Of a stretch of DNA of 64,000 bases, positions 42,997 to 56,340 are shown piece by piece. The notes beneath the pieces are model-generated. The model was given only the letters and a program-made list of their open reading frames with translations, made no database searches and was not told the DNA's origin. The DNA comes from Acidobacteriota bacterium (GTDB lineage: Bacteria > Acidobacteriota > Thermoanaerobaculia > Gp7-AA8), in the NCBI GenBank assembly GCA_016184115.1, contig JACPDH010000066.1, positions 62,001 to 126,000 on the forward strand, read 5' to 3'. The number at the start of each line of letters is the position of its first letter. The first letter of the stretch is position 1. A program made the translations under genes and the position numbers.

Positions 42997-43154
42997 CGCA
43001 CGATTACGATCATCGTTCCGGCTGCCGCTTCTTGGCCCCCGGAAATGGGAGGGTTCAGTTGCGATTTCGTTTGCTGGAGCACCTGCCATCGAGACAATAC
43101 GCTTCAAAGGGGTCTTCGCGACCGATCCGCAACACCGAAGTCACGCGCCAGCGA

Positions 43155-43160
43155 TATGCT
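43155..43160 (+). promoter_or_regulatory. -10-like TATGCT, leaderless VWFA paralogue 2
   Basis: TATGCT ends 6 nt before ATG 43167 with no Shine-Dalgarno, so this gene may have its own promoter within the tandem array. Confidence 0.4.
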
Positions 43161-43166
43161 TTCCGG

Positions 43167-45707
43167 ATGCGCTGGCCGCTCATCGTCGCACTCGCACTCG
43201 CCGTCCTCGTGGCTCCGTCCGCGATCGCATCGATCAACTTCGAGTTCAGTGGTGAGCGATCGGGCAATCCACCGCTTCGCTTTTCAGGCCAGGGATTCGT
43301 CGATGGTCAGGCGAGTCGCTACGACTTCACCGATGGGAATCACGCCCTATTCCACAAGGACATGTCGATCCTCACGCGCGACAACAGAATCCTCACGGTC
43401 GTCGATCATTCGAAGGGGACCTACTTCCGCCGGTCGACGAAGGGAATGTCAGGGATCATCTCGACGTACCAGGGGCCTTACCAGGTCGGTGCCGACCAGT
43501 TCGAGATGAGTCTCGAGACGCTCGAGCGCGAATCGTGGTTAGGCAGCTTCCGGCCGGTGAAACACCACCTGACGTTCCGCTACAGGCTCAGGATGAGCCT
43601 GGAGGGAGAAGAGTTCTTCGGCCGCGTCGAGGCGGACGCCGAGCTCTGGCTCGACCCGAAGTACCGCGTCCCCGCAGCACCGTGGGGACACCAGTTCGGT
43701 CTCAAGACCGGAATCGAGGAGTTCGACGAACAGATCGCGAAGAAGCTGCAAGGGCTTGGGTTTCCATTTCGCCAGATGATCAGCGTGACACGGACGATCG
43801 ACGGCGGGGAGCGGATCACCGAGACACTCCGTACCGACGTGACCCGCTTTGGCGACGCCGCCTTCCCTCGCTCCGGCTTCGATCCTCCGGGAGGCTACGT
43901 CAAATCGGAGCCGATACTCGTCCGGCCAGAGCTTACGGGCGAGCCAGCGGCGATTGCGCAGAACGAGCCGCCGCCCGCTTCCCTTCCGGCAGCACAGGAG
44001 CCGGCGCTCCCGATCCGGACGCTCGATCCGAAGACGGCCGCGCCGCTTCTCGTGGAGAGCGTCGAAGTTCGCGTGGTCAACGTCGATGCGGTCGTCACTG
44101 ACAAGGCGGGCAAGCATGCGCCCGGCCTGAACAAAGAAGACTTCGAGGTCCGCGAAGGAGGCCATCCGCGCGAGATCACACACTTCATCGAGATTTCGTC
44201 CGCGGCGGGAACGCTTGCGCCGCGCGACTCCGCGCCTGACGCAACTTCCGAAGGGGCCGCGCAACAATCTGCGACTGCGGCTCCCGCGATCGAAAGACGG
44301 AATCGAAAGATCATCTTCTTCTTCGATCAGAACACACTCCAACAACGCAACCGTGATCGCGCGGTCGACGCGGCTGCCGCCTTCGCTAAAGAGACGATGC
44401 GGCCCGGCGACGAAGCAATGGTCGTCACATTCGACAACGACATGCGAATCGCGTTGCAGTTCACGGGTGATCCGATCGTCGTCTTCGAAAGCCTCTTGAA
44501 ACTGAAGGGCGGAACGGTTGGGGGCATCGTCAAGTCGCAGCGGCGGACGAAGGCGCAGAATGAGATCCAGCAGACCATCCTCGACTTCAGCACGACCGGC
44601 GCCGGACGCCGCGCTGAGCCACCGCGCTACGAGGATGCGGAGGCCGTCTGTCACAATTACTCGTCGAGCGTGATGCACGACGCGAACCAGACCATTGGCG
44701 CTCTTCAGGGACTAATGAGCGCCCTCTCTCCCGTGACGGGACGCAAGGTACTCGTCTTCGCGACGGAAGCTCTACCGGCACGAGCCGGCGAAGAAATGTG
44801 GATCTTCCTCGACGGCATCAGGCAGTTCTATCCCGCCGGCAGCGCGGGCAATCCGCTGGCCAACGTCTCGAAGTACGACCTCGCGCCAAAGGTGCAGTTG
44901 TTGACCGACTCCGCGAACGCTTCGGGATTCACGTTGTATCCGATCTACGCGAAAGGCCTCGCCGACGACTCGACGGGCGCGGACATGGCGGGCTCGCTCG
45001 CGATGAATTTCGCGCAAGCGGTGAGCGCATCGCGCGACGCCGCCCGATCGAACGACACGATGCCGCTGCAGACGATGGCGAACCGCACGGGCGGCCGGCT
45101 TTCGATGGGAGGGAACGATCTCGGGCCGGCTTTCGACGGCATCACGACCGACCTCGAGAACTACTACTCGATCGGCTACCGTCCCGAAGGAGAACGCTCA
45201 GGCATGCCGCGCTCCGTCGTCGTGAACGTCGACAGACCCGGCTTGAAGGTCAGGACCAAAGCATCGTTCCTCGAACGGACCCTCGAGAACGAGATCGAAG
45301 AAACGGTCGCCGCTGCGCTCTTTTATCCCGTCGATCGCAACGATCTCGGCATCATTGTCTCGACGAAGAGCCCAGAGGCACAACCCGACGGAGCGCTGCA
45401 GACGAAGCTGAGAATCGACGTTCCGACCGCGTCGATGGCGCTCCTTCCCCAGGGGGATGATCTCGCCGGCAGCATCGTCGTGTACATCGGCTTTGTGAAA
45501 GCCGACGGAGGCGTCTCGAAGATCGCGAAGCAGAGCCAGAAATTCGCCTTCCCCGCAGCGACGGCGTCGCGGCGGAAGAACATCACTCTCGAGCTCGACG
45601 TGACCGCCGATGCGTCGACGAACCGCATCGCTGTGGGAGTGCTCGACGAGGCGTCGAAATCGACCGGCTACGCGTCGACCTTCGTCGGTACGCCTCAGGC
45701 GAAGTAG
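43167..45707 (+). CDS. Secreted VWFA-related protein, paralogue 2
   Basis: An 846-aa protein collinear with paralogue 1: signal peptide MRWPLIVALALAVLVAPSAI, domain SINFEFSGERSGNPPLRFSG, then VRVVNVDAVVTDKAGKHAPG. The VWA strand is IIFFFDQNTLQQRNRDRAVD, again with a degenerate MIDAS. It has a slightly longer Ala/Pro linker after APRDS and an extra TGAGRRAEPPRYEDAE segment after the VWA core. ATG 43167 starts the signal peptide; an in-frame extension to 43032 is not signal-like. TATGCT lies 6 nt before the ATG. The C-terminal third is nearly identical to paralogue 3, also at DNA level. Confidence 0.88.
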   Translation: MRWPLIVALALAVLVAPSAIASINFEFSGERSGNPPLRFSGQGFVDGQASRYDFTDGNHALFHKDMSILTRDNRILTVVDHSKGTYFRRSTKGMSGIISTYQGPYQVGADQFEMSLETLERESWLGSFRPVKHHLTFRYRLRMSLEGEEFFGRVEADAELWLDPKYRVPAAPWGHQFGLKTGIEEFDEQIAKKLQGLGFPFRQMISVTRTIDGGERITETLRTDVTRFGDAAFPRSGFDPPGGYVKSEPILVRPELTGEPAAIAQNEPPPASLPAAQEPALPIRTLDPKTAAPLLVESVEVRVVNVDAVVTDKAGKHAPGLNKEDFEVREGGHPREITHFIEISSAAGTLAPRDSAPDATSEGAAQQSATAAPAIERRNRKIIFFFDQNTLQQRNRDRAVDAAAAFAKETMRPGDEAMVVTFDNDMRIALQFTGDPIVVFESLLKLKGGTVGGIVKSQRRTKAQNEIQQTILDFSTTGAGRRAEPPRYEDAEAVCHNYSSSVMHDANQTIGALQGLMSALSPVTGRKVLVFATEALPARAGEEMWIFLDGIRQFYPAGSAGNPLANVSKYDLAPKVQLLTDSANASGFTLYPIYAKGLADDSTGADMAGSLAMNFAQAVSASRDAARSNDTMPLQTMANRTGGRLSMGGNDLGPAFDGITTDLENYYSIGYRPEGERSGMPRSVVVNVDRPGLKVRTKASFLERTLENEIEETVAAALFYPVDRNDLGIIVSTKSPEAQPDGALQTKLRIDVPTASMALLPQGDDLAGSIVVYIGFVKADGGVSKIAKQSQKFAFPAATASRRKNITLELDVTADASTNRIAVGVLDEASKSTGYASTFVGTPQAK

Positions 45708-45805
45708 CCGTGTTCCGGAAGCCGGGAACAGAGTGAGACTCTGATTCCGGCACCGGAGTCATCGCAGTCGGTGTCGGTTGAACTCCACCGGGAGACATAT
45801 CACCA

Positions 45806-48313
45806 ATGCGCTGGACTTCGACTTTCGCGTTCGCACTCCTCACCGTAGCGGCAACTGCGGCGAGCGCCGCCATCAACTTTGATTTCAGCGGGGAGCGCTC
45901 CGGGAATCCACCGATCCGCTTCGCCGGCCAGGGATTCATCGATGGTCAGGCGAGCCGCTACGACTTCGTCGAGGGCAACCACGCGGTCTTCCAAAAGAAC
46001 ATGTCGATCCTCTCGACCGACAACAAGGTGCTGAGCGTCGTCGACCACTCGAAGGGAATCTTCTACCTCCGCTCAACGAAAGGGATGGCCGGCATCATCA
46101 CGACGTACCAGGGGCCATACCAGGTCGGCGCCGATCAGTTCGAGCTCGTGCTGGAGACGCTCGATCGCGAGTCGTGGCTCGGTGCCTACCGTCCCGTCAA
46201 GCACCGCCTGACGTTTAGTTACCGGATCAGGATGTCGCTCGAAGGAGAGGAGTTCTTCGGCCGCGTCGACGCCGAGGCCGAGTTGTGGCTCGATCCAAAA
46301 TACCGCGTCGCCGCCGTCCCCTGGGGACACCAGTTCGGGCTCAAGACGGGGATCGAGGAGTTTGACGACCAGATTGCGAAGAGGCTGCAAGGGCTCGGCT
46401 TCCCGTTCCGGCAGATGATCAGCGTCACGCGCACGATCGAAGGGGGCGAGCGCTTCACGGAAACACTGCGCACTGACGTGACGCGATTCGGTGACACCCC
46501 ATTCCCGCGCTCCGGTTTCAACGCGCCGGGGGGATACGTGAAATCGGAGCCGATCCTCACGCGGCCCGAGCTCAAGGGAATGCCGGTCGAAACCGCACAG
46601 GCCGCACCGCCTCCATCGTCCACTCCATCCGTGCGCGAACCTTCGCTTCCCATCAGATCGGTCGATCCGAAAACCGCGCCTCCGATTCTCGTCGAGAGTG
46701 TCGAGGTTCGCGTGGTCAACATCGATGCCGTCGTCACCGACAAGTCGGGCAATCACGCTCCGGGGCTCGAGCAGGAAGACTTCGAAGTGAGGGAAGGGGG
46801 TCAGCCGCGCGAGATCACGAACTTTCTCGAGGTCTCGAGCGCGGCGGGGACGCTCGCACCTCGTGACTCGTCCGCGGCATCGGCGTCGGAGACGTCATCG
46901 ACCAGCGGAATCGAGCGTCGCAGCCGCAAGATCATCGTCTTCCTCGATCAGAACACCCTGAAACCCCACAACCGCAACCGGATGATCGATGCGGCCACGA
47001 AGTTCGCCCGCGAGACGATGCGTCCGGGTGACGAGGCGATGGTCGTCACGTTCGACAAGCGGACGACGATTGTGCTGCAGTTCACGGGCGACCCGGCGGT
47101 CGTCGCCGAGGCGCTCGAGAAGCTGAAGGGCCAAACCGTCTCCGGAGTCCTCACCTCGCAGCGTCGAACGCGAGCCCAGAACGACATTCTCCAGCTCATC
47201 ATCGACGCGGTCCAGCGCGACGAGCCGCCACGTTACCTCGATGCGTTAGGCGTATGCAGCGTCTACGCCGCCACCGCGATGCACGACGCCAACCAGACGA
47301 TCGGCGCACTTCAGGGGCTCATGACCGCACTTTCGCCAATTCCCGGCCGGAAAGTGCTCGTCTTCGCGACCGAGGCCCTTCCGGCACGGGCCGGCGAAGA
47401 CATGTTCGTCTTCCTCGATGGCATCCGCGACCAGTTTCCCGACGGGCGGAGCCAGAATCCGATCACCGAGGCGACGAAGTACGATCTCGCCCCCAAAGTG
47501 CAGGCGCTCTCCGACACGGCGAACGCCTCCGGCTTTACCCTCTATCCCGTTCACGCGAAGGGGCTCGCCGACGACACGCCAGGCGCCGAGATGTCAGGCT
47601 CGCTCCAGTTGAACTTCGGGATGGCGGTGACCTCCGCGGCCGATGTTGCCAGGTCGAACGACATGTCACCGCTCCTCACGCTCGCGAACGCGACCGGCGG
47701 CAGAATGTCGATGGGAGGGAACGACTTCGACGCCGCGTTCAACGGAATCGCGACCGATCTCGAAAACTACTACTCGATAGGCTACCGTCCCGAGGGCGAA
47801 CGCTCAGGCATGCCGCGGTCAGTCGTCGTGAAGGTCAAAAGGAACGACTTGAAGGTGAGGACCAAATCGTCGTTCCTCGAACGGACCCTCGAGAACGAGA
47901 TTGAGGAAACGGTCGCCGCCGCGCTCTTCTACCCCATCGATCGCAACGATCTCGGCATCTCGATCTCGACGAAGTCCCCCGAGTCTCAGCCCGACGGAAC
48001 TCTGCGCACGAAGCTGAGAATCGACGTTCCGACCGCGTCGATGGCGCTCCTTCCCCAGGGAGATGATCTCGTCGGCAGTATCGTTGTGTACATCGGCTTC
48101 GTGAAAGCCGACGGTGGCATTTCGAAGATTGCGAAGAACAGCCAGCGGTTTGCCTTTCTTGCAGCGACGGCATCGCGGCGTAAGAACATCACTCTCGAGC
48201 TCGACGTGACCGCCGACGCTTCAACGAATCGCATCGCCGTGGGAGTGCTCGACGAGGCGTCGAAATCGACCGGCTACGCGTCGACCTTCGTTGGCGCAAC
48301 ACCCGTGAACTGA
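45806..48313 (+). CDS. Secreted VWFA-related protein, paralogue 3
   Basis: An 835-aa protein with the same architecture: signal peptide MRWTSTFAFALLTVAATAAS, AINFDFSGERSGNPPIRFAG, VRVVNIDAVVTDKSGNHAPG and the VWA segment IIVFLDQNTLKPHNRNRMID. GGGAG lies about 12 nt upstream of the start. The tandem arrangement with short spacers (170 and 98 bp) points to duplication in place. The conserved N-terminal domain (YDF, LDPKYRV, GFPFRQMISVTRT) resembles outer-membrane lipoprotein-sorting or DUF4412-like beta folds, but this is a guess. Functions in surface adhesion or complex assembly are plausible. Confidence 0.88.
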   Translation: MRWTSTFAFALLTVAATAASAAINFDFSGERSGNPPIRFAGQGFIDGQASRYDFVEGNHAVFQKNMSILSTDNKVLSVVDHSKGIFYLRSTKGMAGIITTYQGPYQVGADQFELVLETLDRESWLGAYRPVKHRLTFSYRIRMSLEGEEFFGRVDAEAELWLDPKYRVAAVPWGHQFGLKTGIEEFDDQIAKRLQGLGFPFRQMISVTRTIEGGERFTETLRTDVTRFGDTPFPRSGFNAPGGYVKSEPILTRPELKGMPVETAQAAPPPSSTPSVREPSLPIRSVDPKTAPPILVESVEVRVVNIDAVVTDKSGNHAPGLEQEDFEVREGGQPREITNFLEVSSAAGTLAPRDSSAASASETSSTSGIERRSRKIIVFLDQNTLKPHNRNRMIDAATKFARETMRPGDEAMVVTFDKRTTIVLQFTGDPAVVAEALEKLKGQTVSGVLTSQRRTRAQNDILQLIIDAVQRDEPPRYLDALGVCSVYAATAMHDANQTIGALQGLMTALSPIPGRKVLVFATEALPARAGEDMFVFLDGIRDQFPDGRSQNPITEATKYDLAPKVQALSDTANASGFTLYPVHAKGLADDTPGAEMSGSLQLNFGMAVTSAADVARSNDMSPLLTLANATGGRMSMGGNDFDAAFNGIATDLENYYSIGYRPEGERSGMPRSVVVKVKRNDLKVRTKSSFLERTLENEIEETVAAALFYPIDRNDLGISISTKSPESQPDGTLRTKLRIDVPTASMALLPQGDDLVGSIVVYIGFVKADGGISKIAKNSQRFAFLAATASRRKNITLELDVTADASTNRIAVGVLDEASKSTGYASTFVGATPVN

Positions 48314-49783: not shown

Positions 49784-49839
49784 AGTGTTCTGTCGGTGAA
49801 TTGGGCGCAGTTTCGCGCCGAATTCACGGACAGAACACT
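49784..49839. terminator. Long 25-bp-arm hairpin overlapping the FNR-like gene stop
   Basis: AGTGTTCTGTC-GTGAATT-GGCGC pairs with GCGCC-AATTCAC-GACAGAACACT: 25-bp arms with two mismatches and loop AGTTTC. The outer bases extend into the TAG stop of the FNR-like gene (minus strand). It is the probable terminator or 3' end of that mRNA and is unusually long. Confidence 0.6.
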
Positions 49840-50557
49840 AGACCGTAACCATGTCGTCGAGTGCTTCGCGGTTCTTGACGTACACCGAGGCGCCTTTGAC
49901 CTCAATGACCTTCTTCTTCTTCAGATCGCTCAGCAGGCGCGTCACCGTCTCGCGGCTCGTGCCGATCATCTGCGCGATCTCTTCGTGGGTGAGCAACACC
50001 TGGATGCGCGTTCCCTGCGCCGTCTGCTCCCCCTTGGTGTCACACCATTCGATCAGAAGGCGTGCGAGGCGCTCCGCCGTCGTCTGCGCGAGGCCAAACG
50101 CGCGGATCTCCTTTTGCGCCGAGTGGTAGCGATCGCTCAGCTGCTCGGCCGTGTGCATGCACGCTTCGACATTCTCCGTGATGAAACGGATGAAGTCGTC
50201 ACGACGAATGAAATTGACCTGCGACGGCTCGATGGTCTCCGCCGAGACCTCGTACGACTTGCCTAGAATACTCGCGCTCATGCCGAGCACTTCGCCTTCC
50301 TCGGCAATCTTCACGATCAGCGTCCGCCCTTCCGACGACGACGAGGTCAGCTTGACCTTGCCAGTGCAGATGATGAAGACGCCTCGAGGATCTTCCCCTT
50401 CGACAAAGAGAACGGAGCCTTTCGGATAGACGCTCGTGAACGTGATGCCACTGAGCGTCTCCACTCCGGCTTCGCTCATGTTGCAGAACGTACGTTCCGC
50501 GCGAATCTTGCAGTCGGAGCACTTGTGGAAAACCTCGAGATTGTATGGAGTCGGCAT
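49838..50557 (-). CDS. Crp/Fnr-family transcriptional regulator with FNR-type cysteines
   Basis: A 239-aa regulator. The cNMP/effector domain spans about 38-150 (YPKGSVLFVEGEDPRGVFII). The C-terminal HTH contains LTHEEIAQMIGTSRETVTRL with the FNR-type E-x2-S-R recognition pattern, then LSDLKKKKVIEVKG. The N-terminal segment has C13-x2-C16-x8-C25 and an internal C133, resembling the four [4Fe-4S] ligands of FNR, although the spacing differs. It may thus sense oxygen or NO and control the anaerobic-type Mo/Fe-S enzymes in this region; this is inference. It is divergent from the radical SAM gene 140 bp away and has GAGGG before ATG 50557. Confidence 0.9.
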   Translation of the reverse strand: MPTPYNLEVFHKCSDCKIRAERTFCNMSEAGVETLSGITFTSVYPKGSVLFVEGEDPRGVFIICTGKVKLTSSSSEGRTLIVKIAEEGEVLGMSASILGKSYEVSAETIEPSQVNFIRRDDFIRFITENVEACMHTAEQLSDRYHSAQKEIRAFGLAQTTAERLARLLIEWCDTKGEQTAQGTRIQVLLTHEEIAQMIGTSRETVTRLLSDLKKKKVIEVKGASVYVKNREALDDMVTV

Positions 50558-50697: not shown

Positions 50698-52608
50698 ATG
50701 CGCGTCGCCTTTGTCGTGATGCCGTTCGCCGCCGCCGACAGTCCGAGCCTGGCAGCGGGGCTCCTGAAGTCCGAGCTCGCGGAGCGCGGTATCACTTGCG
50801 ACATCAAATACTTCAACGTCACGCTCGCGATCATGGCGGGCGCGCGCGACTACGAACGAATCAGCAAACAATTCCAGTCGGCATCGCTTGCCGGTGAGTG
50901 GATCTTCTCACAGCAATATTACGGAAACTTAATCTCCGACTGGGATCGCTACGATCGCGAGGTCCTCTCGCACCCACTCTGGGGCGCGGGTGATGGCGAT
51001 CGCGAGATCGTCCGAAGGATGCTCGACCTGGCGCCCGCATTTCTGAAAGTCGCCTACGAATCGAGCGACTGGAGCCGCTACGACCTCGTCGGCTTCACGA
51101 GCACCTTCGAACAAACGATGGCGGTGATGTCGCTTGCTCGCGAGATCCGGCGCAATCATCCGCGGATCCCCATCGTCGCCGGTGGCGCGAACTTCGAGTC
51201 CGTGATGGGCCGCGCTCTGATGGAGGCGTTCCCGCAGATCGACTTCGTGTGCGACGGCGAAGGAGACGTTTCGTTCCCCGCGCTCTGCGAGGCAATCCGA
51301 GACGGAGGATCCGTTCCTCCCGGAATCCTCTACCGCCGCGACGGAGTGATCATCGGAGCTCCCCGCGCCGGCGGATTCACAGAGCTCGACGCTCTCCCCG
51401 ACCCCGATTTCGACGACTACTTCCGCGTGATCGACGCGAGCACGCCACGGATGCCAGTATCGTGGATTCCGGTGGAAGCATCCCGCGGATGCTGGTGGGG
51501 ACAGAAGGCGCACTGCACGTTCTGCGGGCTGAACGGCGACGCGATGACCTTCCGGCAAAAAAGCTGGCGCCGCGTCGCAGCAGAGTGCGCGCGACTCGTC
51601 GGCAAATACCGCCCCGACTCGCTCCAGTTCACCGACAACATTCTCGCGAATGGGTATTTCCGCGACCTTCTGCCCCATTGGGCGGCGGAACGGAACGCGA
51701 CACCGAAGTTCTTCGAGGTGAAATCGAACCTAACGCGCGCGCAAGTCTCGCTGATGCGTGATGCGAACATTCTCTGCGCCCAGGCGGGAATCGAGAGTCT
51801 GTCCGATCCGACCCTCGCGTTGATGCGAAAAGGCGTGTCTGCCGCGCAAAACATCGCAACGCTGCGCTGGCTCGCGGAGCACGACATCCTCGCGAACTGG
51901 AACGTGCTCATCGGGTTCCCCGGGGAGTCTCCGCGTGAAATCGAATTGCAGTTCGACATCATGCGCAAGATCGTTCACCTCGACGCTCCAGCCTTCTGCG
52001 GGGTGATCCGGCTCGATCGCTTCAGCCCGAACTTCTTCGCCTGGCGTGAGCTGGGGTTCTCTTCAATCCGTCCGATGCCTGCCTACCGGCACATTTTCGA
52101 AATGCCGCCCGAGCGCCTGACGAACGCATCCTACTTCTTCGAGTTTGACCATCCCGGTCTCGCGGCATCGGTCTCCGCGGCGTCTCCGCTGATCGAGCTC
52201 TGCGACCGCTGGCGCGCCCGTACCGTACCTCGCGATCGCCGCGAGCTCGAGCTACTGCCACACGTCGCCGGGAACACCGTAGCCGTGGATCGCAGGTTGT
52301 GCCGAGCGGAAGCATCGCTCCGTCTCAACGCAACCGAGGGATCGTTGTTGCTCGCATGTGACGTGCCTCGCACGCCCGAAGCCGCGCTTGCGCAGGTCGA
52401 ACAACGCCATGCACGGGAACGAGGCAACTCCGCGAGCGATGCGCTCAGTCATCTGCTTGAGGCAGAACTGATCGCCGAGGTAGGGCCCAGGCTCGTTACG
52501 CTTGCGGTCATGCGAGAACACGTCCGCGCTGAACTTTCGGCAACTGCAGCGACCGGCCTAACGCCGGATGACAATCATGAATGGAGGTCAGAATGGCGAA
52601 CTACGTGA
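50698..52608 (+). CDS. B12-binding radical SAM protein, RiPP-maturation type
   Basis: A 636-aa protein. The N-terminal ~200 residues form a cobalamin-binding Rossmann-like domain (DLVGFTSTFEQTMAVM, IPIVAGGANFESVMG). The radical SAM motif is C265-x7-C273-x2-C276 in SRGCWWGQKAHCTFCGLNG, the signature of the ribosomal-peptide maturation radical SAM family 1 (C-methyltransferase-like). SAM-binding segments QFTDNILANGY, CAQAGIESLSD and NVLIGFPGESPREIE follow; a C-terminal ~150-residue domain may bind the peptide. It likely methylates or otherwise modifies a peptide. ATG 50698 lacks a Shine-Dalgarno; TACGAT lies 13 nt upstream. Its end overlaps the small ORF 52593. Confidence 0.88.
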   Translation: MRVAFVVMPFAAADSPSLAAGLLKSELAERGITCDIKYFNVTLAIMAGARDYERISKQFQSASLAGEWIFSQQYYGNLISDWDRYDREVLSHPLWGAGDGDREIVRRMLDLAPAFLKVAYESSDWSRYDLVGFTSTFEQTMAVMSLAREIRRNHPRIPIVAGGANFESVMGRALMEAFPQIDFVCDGEGDVSFPALCEAIRDGGSVPPGILYRRDGVIIGAPRAGGFTELDALPDPDFDDYFRVIDASTPRMPVSWIPVEASRGCWWGQKAHCTFCGLNGDAMTFRQKSWRRVAAECARLVGKYRPDSLQFTDNILANGYFRDLLPHWAAERNATPKFFEVKSNLTRAQVSLMRDANILCAQAGIESLSDPTLALMRKGVSAAQNIATLRWLAEHDILANWNVLIGFPGESPREIELQFDIMRKIVHLDAPAFCGVIRLDRFSPNFFAWRELGFSSIRPMPAYRHIFEMPPERLTNASYFFEFDHPGLAASVSAASPLIELCDRWRARTVPRDRRELELLPHVAGNTVAVDRRLCRAEASLRLNATEGSLLLACDVPRTPEAALAQVEQRHARERGNSASDALSHLLEAELIAEVGPRLVTLAVMREHVRAELSATAATGLTPDDNHEWRSEWRTT

Positions 52609-52859
52609 AGTACCTCCTCACGGTCGACGCCGACACCGGCGTTCCGGTGAAGATTGAGCAGGTAGGGGAAGCAGGTGAGCTCCGGGAAGTCAGCATGAGC
52701 GATCTCGCGCCTGCAATCTCGCCCGGCTCCGCGGGCGGAACGGTGATCGTGAACATCTACGCCGGGGGTCAGGTCTCGATGCAGCAGACCCCTGAACAGG
52801 CCGCACGACTCCTTACTCCGGGAATTTTCATGGGCGGCCGGCCGAGCACACAGAAGTAG
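52593..52859 (+). CDS. Candidate RiPP precursor or partner peptide (88 aa)
   Basis: An 88-aa ORF (MANYVKYLLTVDADTGVPVK at the N-terminus) overlapping the radical SAM stop by 16 nt in another frame, with the strong Shine-Dalgarno GGAGGTCAGA, so translation is coupled. The N-terminal 40 residues are acidic and leader-like. The rest contains three Gly-Gly sites (48-49, 58-59, 81-82) and small or amide residues (TVIVNIYAGGQVSMQQTPEQ), with no Cys. No NHLP leader is visible and no family is recognised. A cleaved precursor is the most interesting reading; a small structural subunit is the alternative. It stops 4 nt before the convergent kinase stop. Confidence 0.7.
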   Translation: MANYVKYLLTVDADTGVPVKIEQVGEAGELREVSMSDLAPAISPGSAGGTVIVNIYAGGQVSMQQTPEQAARLLTPGIFMGGRPSTQK

Positions 52860-52863
52860 ACGC

Positions 52864-55800
52864 TCAGCGCACCGAGCCCGAGAGCAGTTCTGCTGCCCGC
52901 TGCTCGTAGTAGCGGAGGCCGAGCTTGCGTGCGCGTGCCTGCGCCCTTTCGACCGTCGCCACACCTCGAGCCTTCGTGGAAGGTGCGGCGAGCTGCAGCT
53001 CGCCGAGCGCGAGCTGTGCTGCGATCAGGTCGAGAGGAAGGTCCAACGCTTCGGCCTCGTTGATCGCCGCAGTCAGCGTACTGGTTGCTTCGTTTCTCCG
53101 GCCCTCGGCCGCGAGCACGCGCGCTTCGGTTACGGCGACTCGGATGCGCAACGCCGGCTTCTCGATTCGTGGCGCATCACGGCGAATCTCCCGCACGGCC
53201 ACAATCGCTTCGTCCACCTTCCCTCGTGCGAGCGCGAGCTCAGCAGTCACGATCGACGCGTACGCCCAGTCATAAAGCACGTGCTGGTCGGCAAGCGTCT
53301 TCCGCGCGGCCGGAATGATTTGCGCCACCGCGTCGAACTTGTGCTCCGCCAGTCTCACCCCCGCGAGGCGTGTCAGTCCGTCCGCTTCCGCCGCTTTTTC
53401 GCCCCTTTGGCGCTGCAGCGCGACAGAGCGTTCGAGTTCCGCCGCCGCCTTCTCGAGCTCATCATCGTAGAAGTGCACGATGGCCAGCTTCGATCGAGCC
53501 TCCGCTTCGTGCAAGGTGTTCGAGGATCCAATCGCCTCCTTGATCGCAGTCTCGAGCTCGGTCCGTGCTTCGACGATCCTTCCCTGCTGGAGTCTTGCTG
53601 TTCCCGCAGAGATATGTGCCGCCGCGCTGAGGTATGCGCCGGTTCCCGCCTTGATCGCTTCAAGTACTTCCATGGAGTGAGTCCAGGCGTCTTGAGAGCG
53701 ACCGCGATAGACCTCGAGTTCTGCAATGTTCTGCCGCGCAATGAGCTCGGCAAGCTTGTCCGACGTTTCCTGGGAGATCGCGAACCCCTCTCGCAGGGAC
53801 TTCTCGGCATCGGCGTAACGCCCTTCAATCCATGCCATCCCGGCCAGACTGTTCAACACCGACGCCTCGCAACTTCTCCATCCGATCCGGGAACAGGTCG
53901 CCTTCGCACCATCGAAGCGCCCCCGCGCGGATGCGAAGTTACCTGCATAAAAATGAACAACGCCGATCTGCATTTCGGCAAGGGCCACACGACCGACGTC
54001 GCCGCTCTTCCCATATGTCGCCTTCGCGGCTTCGAGTGTCTGAAGCGCGTCGTCATATCGTCCTGCGAGGCGCAGCGCCCAGCCGAGCAGTACCTGCGAA
54101 CGGGCCACGAGCAGCGTTGCTCCCCGGAGCGTCCCCTTGTCGATCGCCACCTTCGACAGGTGTGCTACGGCGACACCATCAAGCCGCACTCTCGCGACTT
54201 CCGCGTCCGCGATGTCGATCCGAGGGTCCGCAGAAAGCGGCAGAGGAAGCGAACGGAGGTCGCGGATCGCGTCGCGGGCGCCAGCAAGGTCTCCAGCCAT
54301 CGCACGCGCCTCGGCGAGACGCATTCCATACTCGAGGTCATCGGGAACGAAGCCGTGAAGGACTGAATAGACTTTGCCCGCCTTCTTCCAGTCCTTCTGC
54401 ATCGCTCGAAGGCGTCCTTCGATAGCGAGGCTATCCTCCCGCCCGAGCGTCTTGGAGAGATCGAGGGCGCGCTGCGCCTGCTCGACCGCGCGCTTGTCGT
54501 AGCCGAGCGTCGACCATGCCTCCGCAAGCGACGAGTGGGCCAGCGCAAAATCGGGCTCGAGCGCCACCGCCTTCTCGAGCCGCTCCTTTGCGCCTAACGC
54601 GTCGAAATCGCGAAGTAGTGCGAGCCCTTCCGCGTAGAACCGGATGACTTCTGGACTCTGCGGCCTGGTGGCCGCGAGACCGGCAGCCCGCTCCGTGTCG
54701 AGTGCGCCCTGACCGAACACGCCGCGGATCTTCGTGCCGGCCGAGGCGACCATCGCGAGCAGTTCGGTCTCGGACCCCGATTCGCTGATTGCTGTGATCG
54801 TCTCGCCACTCCGCGCGTCCTGCACACGGAGGTCGAAGCGCAATCGAGTCGTCTCCCCGGTGCCGAGCGCCACGTACGAACCGGCGACGACATAATCCGC
54901 ACTCAGACTCTCTCGGATTCGCTCGAGCGTCTCCTTCGAGTAGGTGTCGCTTCCCTCAAGCGCGAGCTCGTGCCGCGCACGCGCGATCTCCTCGCCCGAG
55001 ATGAGGCGCAATTTGCCTCCCGCGGCGAGCTCGGTGCGAATCATCTCCGCGAATGCCGTTGAGATCCACTCGCTCTGAGTCTTGCCCGACAGGTCCTTGA
55101 ACCCGATGACCGCGGCTCCGGGCCGGACCGCGACGACGGCAGTCGCCTCCGCTTTCGACGACATTGCGTGAGGCGTGCGCGTCGCGACGCTGTAGATACC
55201 GTACCCGGTGACGAGGCTCACGGCGACGATACCGATCGTCGCTACAATTCGCTCCGTCCGCTGTCGACGCAGTGTCTTGTTTCTCGATCTCCCTTTACCT
55301 CGCGCGACCTCGTTTCCCTCGAGTGCAGCGATGACGTCTTGCGGGGTGGCGAAGCGCGCACCCGGATCGGACTCGAGGCAGCGGAGAATGGTCGACTCCC
55401 ACGCTGGATCGAGCCCCTCACAGAACCTGGCGGGCGAGCGCGGCGACGCCTTCATCCGCTGGATTGCCTGGGAAATCGGCGTCGCGCCATCGAATGGCTT
55501 TCGCCCGGTGACCATCTCGTAGAGGATCACTCCGAAGGAGTAGATATCCGAGGCACTGGTCGCGTCCTTCCCTTCGAACTGCTCAGGGGCCATGTACGCG
55601 GGTGTACCGACGACGACGCCGGAATCGGTCAGCGACGCGTCTCCCTCACTCGAGTCGCTGCGCCGCGCGAGCCCGAAATCGGTAATCACGACGCGGACCG
55701 TGCCTTCCCCGGACTCGCCGGAAGGCCTCGTCGTGAACATCACGTTGGCGCTCTTGAAGTCGCGGTGAACTACACCCGCAGCGTGGGCGGCCGCGAGGCC

Positions 55801-56340
55801 CTCGGCAAGTTGTCTCGCGATCGGCAGCGATTCAGAGGGAGTCATCGCGCCCTCGCGGCTCAACTTCTGCGCGAGCGTCTCTCCGTCGAGAAGCTCCATC
55901 GACACGCACATCAGGCGCGTGCTCAACTGCTCGCTGCCGACGATTTCGATCGTGTGGTACGACACGTCGAAGAGCCTGCAGACGTTAGGGTGCGTGACGC
56001 GGCGCGCGATCTGGATCTCGCGCCGAAAGCGCCAGAGCAACGTCTCCTGTGCTGCCGCCTCGGCGCGAATCGTCTTGAGTGCGACACGACCGCCGAGCTC
56101 GAGATCCTCGGCTTCGTAAACCTCACCCATTCCTCCCCGCCCAATGGTCCGCACGATCCGGTAGCGATCGGCGACGGTCTGGTCGGGACGAAAGCTCCAG
56201 ATGCGAGTCGCACCGAGGTTCTGGACGATCTGATCCTCTCTGAGCTCGGCCGTAAGCTCCCCCGAGATGTCCATTCGGGCACTCATCGGAGTGGTGCGCT
56301 GCGGCGCCGGGCTCGTATCGTCTCGTTCGTCCAAGCTCAC
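52864..56340 (-). CDS. Membrane Ser/Thr protein kinase with TolB/FlgO-like and TPR sensor domains
   Basis: A 1158-aa receptor-type kinase. The Hanks-type catalytic domain (58-340) has GRGGMGEVY, Lys89 in VALKTIR, HRDFKSAN (Asp194), DFGLAR (221-226) and APEQ. One transmembrane helix lies at about 365-385. The extracytoplasmic part begins with a FlgO/adenylate-cyclase-associated-like domain (VIGFKDLSGKTQSEWISTAF) and continues with many TPRs (from about 560 to the C-terminus). This architecture is typical of Acidobacteriota signalling. GTG 56340 with GGAG 2-5 nt upstream is chosen; ATG 56286 is possible. It is followed by nothing on its strand and preceded 13 bp away by a small Zn-motif gene, likely in one operon. 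Confidence 0.92.
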   Translation of the reverse strand: MSLDERDDTSPAPQRTTPMSARMDISGELTAELREDQIVQNLGATRIWSFRPDQTVADRYRIVRTIGRGGMGEVYEAEDLELGGRVALKTIRAEAAAQETLLWRFRREIQIARRVTHPNVCRLFDVSYHTIEIVGSEQLSTRLMCVSMELLDGETLAQKLSREGAMTPSESLPIARQLAEGLAAAHAAGVVHRDFKSANVMFTTRPSGESGEGTVRVVITDFGLARRSDSSEGDASLTDSGVVVGTPAYMAPEQFEGKDATSASDIYSFGVILYEMVTGRKPFDGATPISQAIQRMKASPRSPARFCEGLDPAWESTILRCLESDPGARFATPQDVIAALEGNEVARGKGRSRNKTLRRQRTERIVATIGIVAVSLVTGYGIYSVATRTPHAMSSKAEATAVVAVRPGAAVIGFKDLSGKTQSEWISTAFAEMIRTELAAGGKLRLISGEEIARARHELALEGSDTYSKETLERIRESLSADYVVAGSYVALGTGETTRLRFDLRVQDARSGETITAISESGSETELLAMVASAGTKIRGVFGQGALDTERAAGLAATRPQSPEVIRFYAEGLALLRDFDALGAKERLEKAVALEPDFALAHSSLAEAWSTLGYDKRAVEQAQRALDLSKTLGREDSLAIEGRLRAMQKDWKKAGKVYSVLHGFVPDDLEYGMRLAEARAMAGDLAGARDAIRDLRSLPLPLSADPRIDIADAEVARVRLDGVAVAHLSKVAIDKGTLRGATLLVARSQVLLGWALRLAGRYDDALQTLEAAKATYGKSGDVGRVALAEMQIGVVHFYAGNFASARGRFDGAKATCSRIGWRSCEASVLNSLAGMAWIEGRYADAEKSLREGFAISQETSDKLAELIARQNIAELEVYRGRSQDAWTHSMEVLEAIKAGTGAYLSAAAHISAGTARLQQGRIVEARTELETAIKEAIGSSNTLHEAEARSKLAIVHFYDDELEKAAAELERSVALQRQRGEKAAEADGLTRLAGVRLAEHKFDAVAQIIPAARKTLADQHVLYDWAYASIVTAELALARGKVDEAIVAVREIRRDAPRIEKPALRIRVAVTEARVLAAEGRRNEATSTLTAAINEAEALDLPLDLIAAQLALGELQLAAPSTKARGVATVERAQARARKLGLRYYEQRAAELLSGSVR

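Follow-up and report, generated by a model that had tools for sequence, protein, structure and literature searches.

The window, the 64,000-nucleotide stretch of acidobacterial DNA that was analyzed, contains a radical SAM gene, a small ORF that overlaps its end, and a large gene that converges on the pair (Table 1). The radical SAM gene encodes a protein of 636 aa that carries CWWGQKAHCTFCGLNG from residue 265, a C-x7-C-x2-C motif. The protein matched the NCBIfam family TIGR03975 over its full length at 555.8 bits (cutoff, 281.85), and Pfam detected both a B12-binding domain (34.5 bits; cutoff, 32.1) and a Radical_SAM domain (43.5 bits; cutoff, 29.5). Thus, an earlier note made from the sequence alone, which had proposed a maturation radical SAM enzyme for ribosomal peptides with this motif and a cobalamin-type N-terminal domain, was right about the enzyme. 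Moreover, the three motif cysteines were invariant across 49 aligned TIGR03975 enzymes. An AF2 model of the window enzyme had a pLDDT of 92.5, and its residues 1 to about 510 matched the structures of OxsB, TsrM, TokK, and CysS with Z scores of about 18 to 22. By analogy with its family and with reported relatives, we infer that the enzyme C-methylates the core of a peptide.

Table 1. Features of the radical SAM locus and its neighbors, in window positions
Feature	Positions	Strand	Basis or remark
Divergent Crp/FNR-type regulator upstream of the radical SAM gene	49838..50557	-	Pfam; gene order
B12-binding/radical SAM enzyme, TIGR03975 (RiPP maturation radical SAM C-methyltransferase)	50698..52608	+	NCBIfam, Pfam, AF2 model
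B12-binding domain, residues 127-196	51076..51285	+	Pfam stretch
Radical SAM cluster motif C-x7-C-x2-C, residues 265-276	51490..51525	+	Sequence
RRE-like (PqqD-type) domain, residues 515-602, candidate leader-binding site	52240..52503	+	Predicted secondary-structure order
Shine-Dalgarno sequence GGAGGT of the small ORF, within the radical SAM gene	52583..52588	+	Sequence
88-aa precursor-like ORF	52593..52859	+	Overlaps the radical SAM stop by 16 nt
Conserved leader part, residues 1-40, includes YLLTVDADTGVPVKIEQVGEAGELREVSMSDL	52593..52712	+	Pairwise z; predicted beta strands
TVIVNIYAGG strand, residues 50-59	52740..52769	+	Alignment
Variable tail, residues 60-88, proposed core	52770..52856	+	Tail z, L006 duplication, pLDDT
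Membrane Ser/Thr protein kinase with C-terminal TPR region, proposed receptor partner	52864..56340	-	Pfam Pkinase (164.9 bits) and TPRs

Two other features of the window were noted. The divergent Crp/FNR-type regulator has an N-terminal Cys cluster, HKCSDCKIRAERTFCNM, and is common only to the same-genus locus L006, where it is also divergent. The regulator could control the locus, possibly in response to redox state, or be unrelated to it. Farther upstream, at 43032-48313 on the plus strand, two adjacent and similar ORFs of approximately 840 to 890 aa have the look of a tandem duplication, and both contain VFATEALPARAGE and NYYSIGYRPEGERSGMPRSVVV.

The small ORF is arranged as a downstream partner of the enzyme gene. 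Its GGAGGT stands 4 nt before the ATG, and the overlap with the radical SAM stop is also 16 nt in the nearest relative. Because the two frames overlap, the enzyme and the small protein are probably translationally coupled. The Shine-Dalgarno sequence, the length of 88 aa, and the overlap had all been reported in the earlier note and could be read in the sequence. The small protein has no Cys, and it matched no family over threshold in Pfam, NCBIfam, or PHROGs. Likewise, none of the six small ORFs described below matched an NCBIfam or Pfam family over threshold, the NHLP and Nif11 leaders included, in keeping with the earlier description of a protein without Cys or NHLP-leader features. Foldseek returned no match at an E value of 0.001 or lower, as is expected of a low-confidence model of 88 aa, and a plasmid search gave no match.

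Homologs of the small ORF were found by whole-genome searches, as an enzyme pattern scan of genome contigs yielded two loci only; the comparison genomes are drafts, and at least one is metagenome assembled. Genes of the TIGR03975 family were detected in 26 of 149 class genomes and in 26 to 27 of 396 phylum genomes. Searching genomes with the 88-aa protein gave partial homologs beside TIGR03975 genes in G238 and G176, as well as a marginal match in G344 (E, 0.009; interrupted frame) that was left uncounted. In the DNA behind TIGR03975 genes, related small ORFs were present in the same-genus L006 (which seems to be contig C177 of G399), G492, G176, and G238 contig 487. A profile built from the five leaders recovered those five loci at E values below 1e-23 among 148 class genomes and nothing else below approximately 0.003. 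The same profile also matched, at a genome-wide E value of 0.02, a sixth locus in G342, where an ORF of 72 aa with the same N terminus as the other leaders lies directly behind a TIGR03975 gene. Across the 396 phylum genomes, there was no further convincing match, the best others (E, 4e-4 to 9e-4) being partial and inside longer frames. Homologs scattered without the radical SAM gene, which the earlier note had regarded as incompatible with a precursor, were therefore not convincingly seen among the 148 class and 396 phylum genomes. We conclude that the small ORF is real, as homologs occupy the same position in five other genomes.

The small ORF follows the phylogeny of the enzyme. When 53 TIGR03975 enzymes were placed in a maximum-likelihood tree, those with this small ORF, six in all, formed one clade with support of 100/100, and the clade consisted exactly of the enzymes that have the small ORF directly downstream (6/6). 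Mapping the small ORF on the tree needed one change, against a mean of 5.8 when labels were shuffled. Enzymes of the clade are 45 to 69% identical to the window enzyme in the alignment, and all others are 26 to 37% identical. Thus, enzyme clade and small-ORF type go together, here and in a clade with Lys/Ala-rich ORFs, which supports the idea that each subfamily has its own type of peptide.

Small ORFs of other kinds adjoin TIGR03975 genes elsewhere. In the Lys/Ala-rich clade (support, 100/99; L012, L016, L019, L020, L109, and L111), histone-H1-like ORFs of 30 to 59 aa lie 0 to 39 nt behind the enzyme gene and end in short non-Lys tails (DVGLV, DVGLI, DAGMI, DISNGQD, ACIGPG, and PVAIMS). These may be a second undescribed type of precursor with a polycationic leader. 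Upstream of other TIGR03975 genes are small ORFs with tandem repeats, candidate multicore precursors, in which the unit is RPIPEVAP (L039), RGPSIGSIQP (L107), or QQPCVA (L105). At L022, an ORF of 111 aa that looks Nif11-like by eye lies approximately 210 nt upstream of the enzyme gene and has FNPQPEPPGMWDMSSNTPWF near its end. Finally, the clade of L115, L116, and L117 has a small ORF with DPFTPDGVG(Q/K)LARLSYQLGALDGLQRVVGNLLSLDERLDIRRGDREV just upstream of the enzyme gene and a TPR-like protein of 177 aa just downstream.

The six small proteins are 72 to 154 aa long and are conserved at one end. Their first 40 residues aligned in 15 of 15 pairs (z, 5.5 to 27). From residue 60 onward, z scores across pairs were near 0 (-2.1 to 1.4), except for the same-genus pair (11.0) and the pair of repeat-rich proteins (3.3). 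Uniform conservation along the protein, which the earlier note had expected of a folded subunit, is thus not seen; the leader is conserved and the tail is variable. The model of the window protein had an overall pLDDT of 58.8, with values of about 70 to 79 in the leader strands and below 50 from residue 65.

The tails differ in repeat content. In L006, the nearest relative, the tail carries a 63-nt tandem duplication in two copies that are 81% identical and contain KRTL[FS]APGIILGG, and a 39-nt stretch shared by the units differs mostly synonymously. The window tail has a single copy of the duplicated unit, ARLLTPGIFMGGRPSTQK, in which ARLLTPGIFMGG is the counterpart of the L006 motif and PGIFMGGRPS (52818-52847) is part of the unit. 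Other tails are repeated with a 48-nt period (L044; 3.9 copies of GMGPTPAPAPPPEPEI) or an 18-nt period (L043; 4.2 copies of VGPAPA), and the tail is unrepeated in G238 and very short in G342. In three genomes, the tail is Pro rich and of low complexity. A constant stretch of about 40 residues followed by a varying, repeated tail is the anatomy of a leader and a core, and a RiPP precursor is therefore well supported. The absence of a known family and the restriction of these leader-conserved, tail-variable homologs, in the genomes searched, to sites beside the radical SAM gene agree with the earlier suggestion of an undescribed precursor class.

Where the core lies must be revised, however. The earlier note had placed it at TVIVNIYAGGQVSMQQ, in the TVIVNIYAGGQV strand. 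The sequence TVIVNIYxGG is near-identical within the genus and recognizable in two more genera (TVIVNIYTGG, NVIHIYMGG, and PVTVNFYFGG are the counterparts in relatives), whereas the C-terminal tail around PGIFMGGRPS is variable and duplicated. As TVIVNIYAGG belongs to the more conserved part, the earlier core is probably wrong, and we reject TVIVNIYAGGQVSMQQ as the core on the conservation of TVIVNIYxGG. By its pattern of conservation, TVIVNIYAGG is probably leader or spacer instead.

How the enzyme might hold the leader is suggested by its C terminus. In the model, residues 515 to 602 run strand-strand-strand-helix-helix-helix-strand-strand, the order expected for a RiPP recognition element (RRE). 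A structural realignment with OxsB, TsrM, TokK, and CysS covered the enzyme to about residue 516 and scarcely beyond. Similarity to PqqD was weak, appearing in 4 of 22 relatives (best E, 0.0046), and in sequence and profile comparisons it was absent from the window enzyme itself; PqqD and TfuB1 chains were present among the subsignificant profile hits for the enzyme C terminus. The modeled order of elements is suggestive of an RRE that would hold the leader, and it agrees with a report of RREs fused C-terminally in proteusins (PMC7470986).

The genes adjoining the radical SAM gene and the small ORF include no transporter or peptidase, as the earlier note had said. Machinery for leader removal and export is common but not universal for RiPP precursors. 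The Gly-Gly in TVIVNIYAGG could, from its sequence, be a double-glycine cleavage site; a Gly-Gly after the TVIVNIY-type strand is missing in G176 and G342. No C39 peptidase was detected in the whole assembly of the window genome (G000) or in G399 and G492, and we reject a C39/double-glycine export route in the window organism because no such peptidase was detected in its assembly. As functions for export and cleavage were not found nearby, there is room for an intracellular role. Rather than giving rise to a released peptide, the small protein might persist in the cell as a partner or regulator, and its Pro/Gly-rich tail might be modified in situ by the radical SAM enzyme or bind signaling proteins without being modified. 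Its predicted N-terminal strands, the Pro-rich low-complexity tails in three genomes, and the adjoining kinase gene would suit such a role, as would the missing exporter and peptidases. The tail, however, diverges and duplicates as RiPP cores do, the enzyme family takes its name from peptide maturation, and other clades of the family adjoin unrelated small ORFs. We therefore think a lasting intracellular partner unlikely. The idea that the small ORF is no true gene, or a gene in decay, hardly merits belief: its small size and lack of family matches are all that speak for it, and it is refuted by conservation, as there are six homologs conserved in position, a Shine-Dalgarno sequence, and mostly synonymous differences between the two L006 core units. 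Instead, the small ORF and the TIGR03975 enzyme are probably a precursor and maturase pair of the RiPP type, and we count in favor of the pair that other TIGR03975 clades in the phylum also adjoin small, often repeat-bearing ORFs.

The gene that converges on the pair had gone unmentioned in the earlier note. In the window, it encodes a protein of 1158 aa with an N-terminal kinase domain, one hydrophobic, TM-like stretch (residues 365 to 383), and then TPRs, and it ends 4 nt from the small ORF. A convergent gene lies 3 to 44 nt from the small ORF in 6/6 loci, and in four it encodes a TM-anchored Ser/Thr kinase-TPR protein, the arrangement recurring at 3 to 5 nt in L043, L044, and L045. At L038, the neighbor, also at 3 to 5 nt, is a TPR protein whose front was read as cyclase-like on a Pfam E value of 0.33 only. 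At L006, a convergent frame lies 44 nt away, and 13 codons of it precede the end of the contig; the last 13 residues of this neighbor, DHKAEQLLAGAAP, resemble those of the window protein, EQRAAELLSGSVR. When the window TPR region was searched against the six genomes, this neighbor was the best match in G176, G492, and G342 and the second best in G238, and the G399 contig was too short to rank. No other flanking gene was common to all five testable loci, and the upstream matches were limited to kinases in G492 and G342. The window genome has 46 kinase domains, or about 1% of its genes, gene number being estimated. Thus, repeated adjacency of kinases is unlikely by chance alone, although the loci share ancestry. 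Outside the clade, a kinase was present in the fetched flank only at L012 and L017, in a different orientation.

We propose that the beta-rich N-terminal 40 (to 60) residues serve as leader and that the variable, sometimes tandemly duplicated C-terminal tail serves as core. The TIGR03975 enzyme would likely grip the leader by its C-terminal RRE-like domain and, with SAM as methyl donor and B12 as carrier, methylate unactivated core carbons; in the window, these might belong to Ile, Met, or Pro of TPGIFMGGRPS. The core would then be released from the leader. The product may be tied in function to the convergent membrane protein and, in the simplest case, would be the ligand of that protein's extracytoplasmic TPR domain. 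Coupling of a modified peptide to a TPR receptor is plausible, and we hold the receptor link with less confidence than the pair itself; against it, the genes are convergent and outside the operon, and Ser/Thr kinases are common.

Perhaps, then, the pair is real and the TPR kinase is an unrelated neighbor kept by synteny. This is a serious possibility, if short of an even chance, since 46 kinases make chance adjacency about 1% per gene and a convergent kinase is not cotranscribed. Synteny alone sits poorly with a neighbor that stayed at 3 to 44 nt in six genomes from three families while no other flanking gene was universal, that was, in three genomes, the protein matching the window TPR region best, and that most nonclade TIGR03975 loci lack in the fetched flank. 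Alternatively, the kinase or cyclase-like TPR protein might regulate production of the peptide rather than receive it. Proximity and the extra Ser/Thr kinases upstream in G492 and G342 would agree, but no transcription factor is conserved alongside the TPR protein, and what the loci have in common is the TPR region, with another output domain in G238, a pattern that looks more like that of a conserved sensor. Such regulation seems somewhat unlikely to us. In its fullest form, the receptor link would be a bacterial peptide-hormone system, in which a ribosomal peptide, C-methylated by the B12/radical SAM enzyme and made with a beta-rich leader of a new class, serves a membrane TPR receptor as its dedicated ligand, and the receptor has an exchangeable output domain, either a Ser/Thr kinase or cyclase-like. 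We offer that system as a speculation and would bet against it as a whole. Nonetheless, as the pair lies tail to tail with a membrane receptor-like protein in six genomes, a modified peptide may feed a signaling receptor.

One published survey set clusters with TIGR03975 alone aside as likely false positives (PMC9426513), which counts against the pair. Here, part of a large and little-characterized family gains a defined partner peptide with a proposed leader and core, and a probable modified ribosomal peptide is seen to share a conserved locus with a receptor-like kinase. Should the link be true, the peptide would be a candidate ligand for some of the orphan TPR-kinases, many of which are found in Acidobacteriota. 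In partially covered literature on TIGR03975, radical SAM C-methyltransferase RiPPs, acidobacterial RiPPs, and links between kinase or TPR proteins and RiPPs, neither the leader nor the pairing with a receptor was described.

Several known systems come close to the locus. PoyC and PoyB of polytheonamide, a proteusin, are likewise B12-dependent radical SAM peptide C-methyltransferases, and for PoyC, both the C-x7-C-x2-C motif and methylation of Val and Ile carbons of a RiPP have been reported (PMC11285071); the modification in the window is predicted. The window differs in that its precursor is not of the NHLP type and it has one modifying enzyme and no peptidase or transporter nearby. The other acidobacterial TIGR03975 loci pair the same enzyme family with an adjoining small ORF (Nif11-like, Lys/Ala-rich, or repeat bearing) but have other leader types and enzymes, 26 to 37% identical to that of the window, outside its clade. 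The solved enzymes TsrM, TokK, CysS, and OxsB share the two-domain fold of the window model, but the match ends near residue 510 to 540, before the RRE-like part, and they are not known to act on a leader-bearing peptide. For the precursor, TvgA and TvgB likewise join a radical SAM enzyme to a peptide with tandem hydrophobic/Gly repeats, reported as the source of a poly-cyclopropylglycine RiPP (PMC9062424). There, the enzyme is of the SPASM-type radical SAM subfamily and the repeats are TVGG. The RRNPP peptide-pheromone receptors of Firmicutes are cytoplasmic and have a TPR domain encoded beside a small peptide gene. The window shares that adjacency, but its TPR region is no cytoplasmic receptor of this kind, as a Ser/Thr kinase (elsewhere cyclase-like) domain and a single TM-like segment precede it. 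Overall, the enzyme is of a known family, the probable leader belongs to an undescribed class, and the receptor-like partner is conserved and unusual.
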